A DNA stretch of 64,000 nt, taken from assembly GCA_004144175.1 (NCBI GenBank), contig SEFT01000006.1, forward strand, positions 186,001 through 250,000, read 5' to 3'. The notes below the pieces were generated by a model. The model was not told where the DNA came from. It saw nothing but the letters and a program-made list of their open reading frames with translations, and searched no databases. Position 1 is the first letter of the stretch, and every line of letters starts with the position of its first letter. Made by a program: the position numbers and the translations under genes. This document shows positions 3,487-35,473 of this stretch, one piece after another. The DNA comes from Sphingobacteriales bacterium (GTDB lineage Bacteria; Bacteroidota; Bacteroidia; Chitinophagales; Chitinophagaceae).

Positions 3487-6400
3487 ATGGCACTGTTTAT
3501 GAAAAGTTTGTTTACCCTGTTACTGCTTCTGTATTTTCCGTTTGCTGCTGTCTTTGCTCAACGCAATCTGGTACCCAATGGAAACTTTGAATATTATGGT
3601 GCTTGCCCTACCGCGACTGCGCAACTAGGCAATATTACAGGGTGGAGCAATTTTCAGAATACACCCGATTTTTTTCATAGCTGCGGAGCCATTGTAGTCG
3701 GTATGCCATCAAACAAGTGGGGGACTGAGAATGCGGTAAGCGGGAATGGCTACGTGGGTGCATCGTTCTATAGCAGAAGGGAATCATTCACAAGGGCTAT
3801 TACACCAATGGTGGCTACGAGGAGCTACGAAGTCTCATTGTCTATATCGCTGGCCGATAACTCCAAGTATGCAGTTGATGGCCTGGGCATATTCCTGAAA
3901 AGGGGAGCGGCCTATTACAATTCAAGCCGCATCTTGATTCCGCAGGTAGATTTTAGCTTTGCAGGGCCGATTACCGAAAAAACTGGATGGGTGAGACTGA
4001 CGGCTTATTACGTTGCTGATTCTGCTTACGACAATATAGTGCTTGGCAACTTCAAAGACGACAGTGTGCTGAATATTGTATCGCTCAGTGCCGGATCTAT
4101 ACCACATGCTTACTACTATTTCGATTCAATAGTGATCAGGGCAGAAAACCTGGCATTAAGGTATAGGGATACGCTGCTGTGTGCAGGTGATTCCCTGATC
4201 GTACCCTATTTCGTAAACAGTGATTCGATCAATGCTGGTAATATATTTTCGCTACAGCTATCGGATACATCAGACAGTTTTGTCAGTGGTGTCACCACGC
4301 TTGCTACGGTCTCCGGCATTAGCTCCGGAATATTCAGAACGGTAATTCCTGCCACCATAGCTGCCGGTTATCACTATCGTATTCGTGTGGTATCAAGTAG
4401 CAAGCCACTGACGAGCCGCACTAATGGAAAGGATATAGCAATAGGCGCTTTTAGACCCAATAAACCAGTAGCTGCCAGCAATGGCCCTGTATGTACGGCA
4501 GATAGCCTGCGGCTGAGTGCAACAACCACTAGTACGGGCACATTTACCTGGCGTTGGGAAGGGCCTAATAACTTTATATCAACGGCGCAAAACCCGGTAA
4601 TGGGCAACCCAATCAATACCTCGGCAGGCAACTATCGCGTGACGGTATATAACTATGGCTGCATAGCGAGAGACACAACTTCGGTACTTGTGAAAACATC
4701 TCCTGCCGCAATAGTCGCTTCGTCCAATTCGTCAGTGTGCGAGCAGGATACATTGAAGCTATATTCAACTGCATCTTCATCGGGTGTCACGTACAGCTGG
4801 AGTGGTCCTGACAGTTTTAGCTCGTCCATTCTACATCCCGTTATCCTCAATGCGTCTGTCACCAATGGTGGCAAGTATTATATAGTTGCCACTGCTTCCA
4901 ATGGCTGCTACCGTAAGGATTCAGTAGTCGCAAACGTAAAGCCGAAGCCATTTGTAGCTGCTTCAAGTAATGGGCCGGTGTGTGTGCAATCAAGCCTGAG
5001 CCTTTCGGCCAATACGGCTGTTAACGGCGCTAGCTTTACCTGGAGTGGACCTGTTGGCTACATGTCTGCGAGTCAGTATCCGGCTGTCAGTTCTGTAACT
5101 ACAGCTAATGCCGGTCTTTATACGGTTACTGCCAGCTTAAATGGATGTACCGATACCGGAATAACAACGGTAGTAATTAATTCCCGCCCGTCTTTGAGCA
5201 CGGCCTCTAACAGCCCGGTGTGTCTGCTGGATACTATTAAGCTATTGTCTACAGCCTCGGCCGGCGTAAGCTACAACTGGACAGGCCCGGGCAGCTATAG
5301 TGCCACTGTCGCTAATCCGTTCATAGCGCTTGCTGCTACTGCAAATGATGGTAAATATATGCTGACCGTAACAGATACCAACGGCTGCACCCGAACCGAT
5401 TCAGTAAACGTTACAATGAAGGCATTGCCGGAAAGCTATGCATCTAATACCAGTCCGGTATGTGCAGGTACTTCTTTCGGGCTGAGTGCTACCACGTCTT
5501 ATATGGGTGTATCTTTTGTATGGACAGGTCCTAATGGATTTAGCGCTACATCAGTAAGCCCGACTGTTAATAATGCACAGGTAGTTGCAGGCGGTACATA
5601 TGTGCTTACGGCCACCATGAATGGCTGTAGCTATACGGCTGTAACCAATGCTACCGTACACGCCATACCGGTAGCGCATGCCAGTGCCCAATTGCCGGTG
5701 TGCCTGGGCAGTACTATACAGCTTCTTGGCAACAGCTACCCGGCCGCTACCTACCAATGGAGCGGGCCATCATATAGCTCCACCTTCCAAAGTCCGGCGA
5801 TGGCTGCTTCGTCGGCCGGCCAGAGCGGAAACTATGTGCTGATCGTGACGGCTAATGGTTGTGTGTCTAAACCTGATACGGTATTTGTGAAAATAAATGC
5901 ACTGCCTGTAATAGGTGGGTATGTGAGTCCCAATGATACCATTTGCAAAGGCACTAGCCCTACTTTTGTAGCCTTTGTACAGAATGGTGGCCCGGCGCCG
6001 GTTGCGCAGTGGTACAAGAATAATGTTCCAGTCGGCATACCTAATAGCTTAAAGTATAAGCCTCAAGTGGTGGATAGCGGAGATATTTATTACTGCAAGC
6101 TAATCGCTCCCGGCGTTTGCTACACTACGCTGATGATGTCTACAGATACAGTAAAGATGGCCGTACTGCCGGTAGTAACCAGGCCCGAAGTGGAGATAAC
6201 AGCCAACCCGGGATTTAGTGTAAGGCCTTCGGACAATGTACGGTTTACTGCACATGTGAAGTATGGCGGTGCCCGTCCTCAATACCAATGGTACAGAAAC
6301 GGAATCAAACAAACCGGCGCCAAGCAGGCTATCTTTGACGCTATAGGCCTGGTATCTAAGGATGTGATACAGGTAGATGTTGTTAGTGATGACCTTTGTG

Positions 6401-25808: not shown

Positions 25809-25917
25809 ATATATTGATTCTGAGTTAATCTGGTATGAACTTAATATTAGATAAAGATTCCAATGTTAAGAAATCATTAAGTCTATATTAACAGTTTTTC
25901 ACCCTTGTAAGTAAAGA

Positions 25918-35156: not shown

Positions 35157-35333
35157 CTAGCGTTTGAAGGAATGATAGAACGAAGTATATGCACGTAGCA
35201 AAAGTCTTGAGGTAATATCTGCGATCAATGAAGCGCCGACTTTTTTCAGTTGTGCAGCGATGCCGGAGCTAATGGATGGCTTTAATGTTTCAGAAGCGAA
35301 ATCTAATGGTGGGTTAGTACTGCTGATGAACAT
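35157..35333 (-). CDS. Possible 58-aa protein leading the LpxH-like operon
   Basis: An open frame of 58 codons starts at the ATG 35333 and stops 3 nt before the LpxH-like ATG. Residues 20-48 (PSISSGIAAQLKKVGASLIA and on) could form an amphipathic helix, and the C-terminus is basic (HSFKR). A perfect promoter box TAGTTTTG (35348-35355, minus strand) sits 14 nt upstream of the ATG, which is the best support. No family is recognised. Confidence 0.45.
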   Translation of the reverse strand: MFISSTNPPLDFASETLKPSISSGIAAQLKKVGASLIADITSRLLLRAYTSFYHSFKR

Positions 35334-35347
35334 AGTTTCGAGTTTTT

Positions 35348-35355
35348 CAAAACTA
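35348..35355 (-). promoter_or_regulatory. -7 promoter box (TAGTTTTG) for the 35333-31832 operon
   Basis: A perfect TAnnTTTG match on the minus strand, the only good one in the 320-nt gap between the operon and the SurA-like gene. No clear -33 TTG was found. Confidence 0.55.
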
Positions 35356-35420
35356 TAATCGCAGTATAACCATGATATTAATGGAGCTTTATCTAATTGT
35401 TATCAAGGATTGGCAATAAT

Positions 35421-35452
35421 ACAAATGGCATCCTTCAAAGGATGCCATTTGT
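35421..35452 (-). terminator. 14-bp hairpin after the SurA-like gene
   Basis: ACAAATGGCATCCT (35421-35434) pairs with AGGATGCCATTTGT (35439-35452) around TCAA. It lies 22 nt beyond the stop at 35474; the following minus-strand sequence is A/T-rich but lacks a long T-run. Confidence 0.7.
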
Positions 35453-35473
35453 ATTTGTAACTTATTGATGTAA

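Follow-up and report, generated by a model that had tools for sequence, protein, structure and literature searches.

A probable small-protein gene leading an LpxH-like phosphoesterase, glycosyltransferase and GH1 operon in Chitinophagaceae

Directly upstream of a gene for an LpxH-like metallophosphoesterase, the 64,000-nt stretch of DNA analysed here (the window) contains an open reading frame of only 58 codons, and the question raised by this locus is whether that frame is a real gene and, if so, what its product would do for the operon that it leads. A first-pass annotation had proposed it as a possible gene. The frame exists, on the minus strand, which that annotation had left unstated, from an ATG at 35333-35331 to a TAG at 35159-35157, and the claimed gap of 3 nt between its stop and the LpxH-like ATG (35153) was confirmed (Table 1); a plus-strand reading of 35157-35333 is ruled out by stops. 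Composition shuffling left the 57 codons that follow the start free of stops in 6.5% of cases, so the ORF is not significant by itself. The promoter box TAnnTTTG that had been noted 14 nt before the ATG is indeed present, as TAGTTTTG at 35355-35348; the pattern was matched 51 times in the window with 48.5 matches expected, so the box proves nothing alone. Significance comes from three other observations, namely the same box spacing in related loci, a shared C-terminus, and codon-level selection in relatives. Together with the presence of a family at the same place, these bear out the proposal of a small gene leading the operon, and we consider the small ORF very probably a real gene.

Table 1. 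Features of the small-ORF locus and of a second repeat site in the window
Feature	Position	Strand	Remarks
58-aa small ORF	35157..35333	-	family at equivalent place in related loci; C-terminus compared with shuffles
-7 promoter element TAGTTTTG	35348..35355	-	fits TAnnTTTG, ends 14 nt before ATG
Pho-box-like operator	35365..35404	-	four 7-mers GATAACA, GATAAAG, ATTAATA, GGTTATA, 4 nt apart (11-bp period)
38-bp inverted repeat	35418..35455	.	94.7% self-complementary match; between upstream SurA-like gene and operator
LpxH-like metallophosphoesterase, 281 aa	34308..35153	-	probably PlcP-type phospholipase C
Glycosyltransferase, 360 aa	33229..34311	-	PF13528; TIGR00661-like, below that model's cut-off
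GH1-family protein, 461 aa	31832..33217	-	directly 3' of glycosyltransferase gene
Second Pho-box-like site	25864..25903	-	score 17.3; gap before DUF47 (PhoU_div) and PHO4 phosphate-transporter genes

A plain protein search with the window ORF in 58 other genomes returned nothing convincing (best E 0.045), and nothing was gained from searching it in plasmids and viral contigs, from Pfam and NCBIfam with 24 family members, or from a PDB sequence search with the small ORF. In Rfam, no match reached the gathering score of its family, and most of the matches fell on the inverted repeat. The lead to the family came from several weak tblastn matches just 5′ of LpxH-like genes, followed by reading of those gaps. 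When 26,550 stop-to-stop ORFs from both strands were scanned with profiles made of 19 short rows and 11 long ones, the window among the latter, a matching small ORF (E<1e-3) was found directly before the LpxH-like gene in 47 of 115 loci, with matches away from that gene in none of the 115; five non-adjacent matches occurred in loci fetched with the small-ORF profiles (L127, L131, L132, L140 and L142). Seventeen of the 47 lie outside the training rows; three of these duplicate loci counted elsewhere (L126, L130 and L135), which leaves 14 non-duplicates, and two of the 14, L128 and L129, had themselves been fetched with the small-ORF profile, as had five of the 115 loci in all (L126, L128, L129, L130 and L135). 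Hand calls added 16 further loci, eight marked 'y' and eight marked 'yTTG' for a presumed TTG start, leaving 9 uncertain loci ('?'), 3 more doubtful ones ('y?') and 40 without an ORF. In the 47 profile-matched loci, at most 17 nt separate the small-ORF stop from the next start, or the two overlap. When 396 genomes of the order were searched with profiles, each search matched at least 9 genomes at E≤0.01, several of the matches containing internal stops; where candidates from the first round were numerous, a part of them was scored.

Two forms were distinguished among the members, a short form of 33 aa (with related forms of 33 to 41 aa) and a long form of 58 or 59 aa. The window ORF, which immediately precedes the gene of the operon's first enzyme on the same strand, is of the long form. 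Counting the window, 10 of 11 long-form rows have the promoter box at a spacing of 14 nt from the ATG, the exception being L074, which has none; in L050 and L060 the -7 box ends in A instead of G. According to PMC6847099, transcription in Flavobacterium johnsoniae often starts 4-5 nt after the -7 element, and a comparable spacing here would give a leader of about 9-10 nt. A third variant, 36-38 aa in length and close behind a -7-like box, was seen in L053, L055, L061, L068 and L077, starting with MNFIKK in four of the five and with MKLIKR in L077. In eight loci of Sphingobacteriaceae type (L084, L088, L089, L099, L108, L109, L117 and L122), a related frame has an apparent TTG start about 29 codons before the enzyme, with dN/dS below 0.5 in the seven compared (L088 left out). 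L077, L044-L057 and others cluster with Chitinophagaceae on the tree, and their bin labels (Streptomyces griseus, Bacteroidales) look wrong.

Codon-level conservation with a kept start and stop had been suggested as the check on this gene. Between short-form pairs dN/dS is mostly 0.03-0.3 and at highest 0.54, pairs with saturated or zero synonymous change giving no value. In 11 pairs of the 33- to 41-aa forms, chosen so that each locus was used once, 86 amino-acid changes were counted against 153 expected, and 0 of 2000 randomisations gave a count as low; the 33-aa form is constrained over its whole length. In a set of eight 59-aa long forms, constraint is seen in the last 21 residues (mismatch at the three codon positions 0.37, 0.20 and 0.55), whereas residues 2-38 show hardly any (0.59, 0.58 and 0.64). 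All eight frames are nevertheless open, compared with 3.5-13% of shuffles, so that the reading frame itself seems to be kept. Thus, the check comes out well for the short form of 33 aa and at the C-terminal 21 residues of the long form, and nearly fails at residues 2-38 of the latter, where little beyond the open frame is kept. The close relatives that had been named as the place to look decide neither way, because the 14 same-genus genomes sampled carry a version of the operon without such an ORF. Codon-level selection in relatives rules out an RNA element as the only content of the region.

The window ORF is the most diverged member of the family, with a C-terminal score of 30 against 55-68 for the ten others, and when left out of the long model it reached E 3.2 and rank 44 over 26,550 ORFs, which is non-significant as a blind search. 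Together with a frame that is open by chance in about one shuffle of fifteen, this is what a chance or decaying frame would look like, even if relatives have a real gene. However, start, promoter spacing, length (58 aa, with 59 aa in 8 of the 10 other long forms), stop position and C-terminal pattern are all kept: the ORF ends in the long-form motif F/Y-Y-x-x-[LIF]-K-[HR]-stop, preceded by a hydrophobic helix. When its letters were shuffled 20,000 times, its whole-profile score was reached only 10 times; for the stop-anchored last 18 residues, 20,000 whole-ORF shuffles gave just 1 score as good and 20,000 local shuffles gave 0. Because of this C-terminus test and the kept start, length and promoter spacing, we take the window ORF as a member and consider a chance or decaying frame very improbable. 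Its predicted structure, modelled with 24 rows (mean pLDDT 71), has a loose N-terminus and one helix at residues 21-57. An amphipathic helix with a basic tail had been claimed in the first-pass annotation, and both hold for the window ORF (moment 0.63, as high in 1% of shuffles), but none of 13 other members tested was unusual in this respect (15-73% of shuffles as high).

The operon runs from the small ORF through the LpxH-like gene and the glycosyltransferase gene, which overlap by 4 nt, to the gene of a GH1 protein for which no signal peptide was obvious by eye. This gene order agrees with the operon originally described, while the identity of its first enzyme probably needs revising. The LpxH-like protein shares 36% identity with a Rhizobiaceae homologue, compared with 23% for the second LpxH-like protein of the genome, and 40.5% with a Pseudomonas aeruginosa plasmid-borne protein (L152) whose gene precedes a glycosyltransferase, the Rhizobiaceae and P. 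aeruginosa homologues being counted as PlcP from published context and labelled UDP-2,3-diacylglucosamine diphosphatase or not at all. The enzyme also has matches in two further plasmid records of P. aeruginosa. With LpxH, the UDP-2,3-diacylglucosamine pyrophosphatase, the predicted structure would have a fold class in common: the best PDB matches of the model (mean pLDDT 74) were LpxH structures, with TM-scores of only about 0.5-0.6. The window enzyme is far under the TIGR01854 equivalog cut-off for LpxH (41.7 bits against 190.35); since the genome's other LpxH-like gene is also under it (68.9 bits), this cut-off is not decisive in the phylum. The context by which PlcP is recognised, a Pho-box-like sequence upstream and a neighbouring glycosyltransferase, is present by sequence, and a glycosyltransferase lies next to the LpxH-like gene in 106 of 115 loci. 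The gene is therefore nearer PlcP than LpxH and probably encodes a PlcP-type phospholipase C, PlcP being the enzyme of that activity in lipid remodelling under phosphate starvation.

The operator-like repeats of the operon end just 5′ of the -7 box. An expectation-maximisation search for four 7-mers covered 60 upstream regions whose ORF is either called or probable, many of these regions being mutually related; the likelihood gain at period 11 was 526, compared with 57-105 at periods 8-10 and 12-15. Only two sites of the window score 14 or more, the operon operator ranking second to the site at 25864..25903; the other flank of the latter is a 182-aa gene without a Pfam match, and its repeats point away from the DUF47 and PHO4 genes. 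As a control, 614 mostly coding stretches were picked randomly from the loci; the 99th percentile of their scores, 8.2, is exceeded by 34 of 48 loci that lack a firm ORF. The 14 same-genus genomes (among L017-L033) offer no room for an ORF of such size, as the distance from the beginning of the repeats to the aligned enzyme start is only 78-101 nt. Elsewhere in the window's own genome, a gene with a weak Porin_O_P match (25.2 bits, above the cut-off of 20.9) has at least five Pho-box-like repeats beside it, which lie on the opposite strand and point away from the gene (L149; contig C78, about 6083-6110). Two pstS-like loci of the genome showed no strong Pho-box-like site (best 7.7), and genome-wide the Pho-box pattern gave 4 matches against 2 for a reversed control pattern. 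The operator points to control by phosphate starvation, presumably of PhoB type. Upstream of it, the 38-bp inverted repeat may be a transcription terminator, and was not listed by a terminator scan.

The co-occurrence of the small ORF and GH1 bears on the likely partner of the small protein. Of 103 callable loci, 67 contain GH1. With firm ORF calls (model or hand), 54 loci have ORF and GH1, 35 neither, 3 GH1 only (L032, L095 and L107) and none the ORF only; the respective numbers are 39, 36, 28 and 0 by profile alone, and 64, 35, 3 and 1 (L082) when doubtful ORFs are counted. Set aside in the firm count were the 9 '?' and 3 'y?' loci, the copies L126, L130 and L135, and loci near a contig end, and in part of the loci GH1 was looked for only within about 300-450 nt after the glycosyltransferase. 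Fourteen of the 35 loci that have the phosphoesterase and neither ORF nor GH1 belong to one genus, and on the tree the association shows one well-supported independent pair, or 7 if weak branches count; this is too few to test, so the ORF-GH1 link is suggestive only. One genome (L127 and L166, the same place) has the ORF followed directly by glycosyltransferase and GH1 without an LpxH-like gene between, its one LpxH-like gene at E≤1e-10 (49% identical) being on another contig, which makes the glycosyltransferase or GH1 protein a likelier partner than PlcP. Among 30 glycosyltransferase loci examined, largely of genomes already counted, L169, L173 and L174 have glycosyltransferase and GH1 without a visible ORF; GH1 thus does not require the ORF. 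The counts suggest that the small ORF tracks GH1 rather than the LpxH-like gene. An N-terminal fusion to the LpxH-like protein was considered as well, and no clear fusion was seen among 52 loci without an ORF call. On a quick-method tree with many weak forks, the window LpxH-like protein groups with the long-form group, apart from the 14 sampled genus mates, whose PlcP-type operon shows neither GH1 nor small ORF; whole-cassette transfer or differential loss could account for this odd placement.

Conservation is shown for the place of the ORF, its frame and its C-terminus, as well as for the operator-like repeats and the order of the genes. Our main reading, to which we give a probability of about 50%, is that the small ORF is the first cistron of a phosphate-starvation glycolipid operon and that its product is a membrane-bound helical partner of the glycolipid enzymes, in keeping with the membrane partner raised in the first-pass annotation. 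Phosphate starvation would switch the operon on through the PhoB-type operator, and the operon would then make phosphorus-free glycolipids in place of phosphate-containing membrane lipids: the PlcP-type enzyme would cut phospholipid to diacylglycerol, the glycosyltransferase would add a sugar to it, and the GH1 protein might trim, extend or transfer that sugar. Translated just ahead of the enzymes as a short helix with positive charge, the small protein would sit on the inner membrane and dock or regulate the glycosyltransferase or the GH1 protein. The PhoB control, the lipid chemistry, the membrane binding and the choice of partner are what we infer from the locus. A stronger version, in which the small protein is a required subunit or specificity factor, GH1 a lipid glycosyl-transferring enzyme, and the whole a Bacteroidota route distinct from the proteobacterial PlcP-Agt route, is tentative and in our view doubtful.

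Two other roles have to be weighed against an enzyme partner. The main rival is that the ORF could be a leader peptide, the act of translation and not the product controlling or coupling downstream translation by attenuation or termination-reinitiation. Its place as first cistron with a stop so near the next start would suit such a role, as would a long form whose N-terminal residues vary freely while the frame stays open, with conservation at the C-terminus, which is also the conserved part of arrest peptides. The 33-aa form, however, is constrained as a whole, and the conserved LK lies anywhere from 1 to 13 residues before the stop, depending on the member, which is unlike arrest at a stop codon, although stalling inside the ORF remains compatible with it. 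Moreover, in the 14 same-genus genomes the PlcP-type gene and its operator-like repeats persist in the absence of the ORF; that enzyme can therefore do without coupling, and we regard a leader peptide as rather unlikely. Alternatively, the small protein could serve the PlcP-type phospholipase itself, for example as a membrane anchor or an inhibitor. Its gene is directly 5′ of the PlcP-type gene, the start of which it often overlaps, but the 35 callable loci with a phosphoesterase and no ORF or GH1, and the genome in which the ORF directly precedes glycosyltransferase and GH1 with the LpxH-like gene on another contig, make this reading less probable still. A partner of the glycosyltransferase or GH1 protein remains the preferred one.

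PlcP-glycosyltransferase operons under Pho boxes have been published (PMC4796936, PMC8528852), with lipid remodelling by the two enzymes shown in PMC4796936 and a PlcP-Agt1 arrangement in P. aeruginosa described in PMC8528852. The PlcP-Agt operons of rhizobia, SAR11, Phaeobacter and P. aeruginosa resemble that of the window in having the phosphoesterase and then the glycosyltransferase behind a Pho box; the leading small ORF and the terminal GH1 are features of the window that go unmentioned in the available text of both papers. Likewise, the P. aeruginosa plasmid locus (L152) has neither small ORF nor GH1 annotated. Among Bacteroidota, the PHO regulon of F. johnsoniae includes counterparts of the window's probable PlcP and its glycosyltransferase, namely a PlcP (Fjoh_4577) and a glycosyltransferase (Fjoh_0541), both strongly induced by phosphate depletion (PMC8115612); unlike in the window, PlcP is listed there as an orphan and the glycosyltransferase belongs to the PhoBR operon, and the available text of that paper does not mention a small ORF. 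No report of the small-ORF family was found in the accessible text of the open literature searched (PMC10734472 among it), within which a small-protein family at the head of a PlcP-type, glycosyltransferase and GH1 operon is thus undescribed. In its description, the window ORF is like the CydX-like small proteins, which are very short, hydrophobic, located in their enzyme's operon and easily missed by annotation. CydX itself is a small membrane protein encoded with its enzyme, cytochrome bd oxidase.

Lipid remodelling under phosphate starvation has been shown in proteobacteria, while the steps after PlcP in Bacteroidota are, to our knowledge and as far as the accessible literature goes, seemingly little known. 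The small-protein family is one that annotation would likely skip, and the period-11 repeats offer a candidate Bacteroidota Pho-box pattern. We believe that the four-gene version of the operon, with its small protein and GH1, would give Bacteroidota a concrete, testable pathway.
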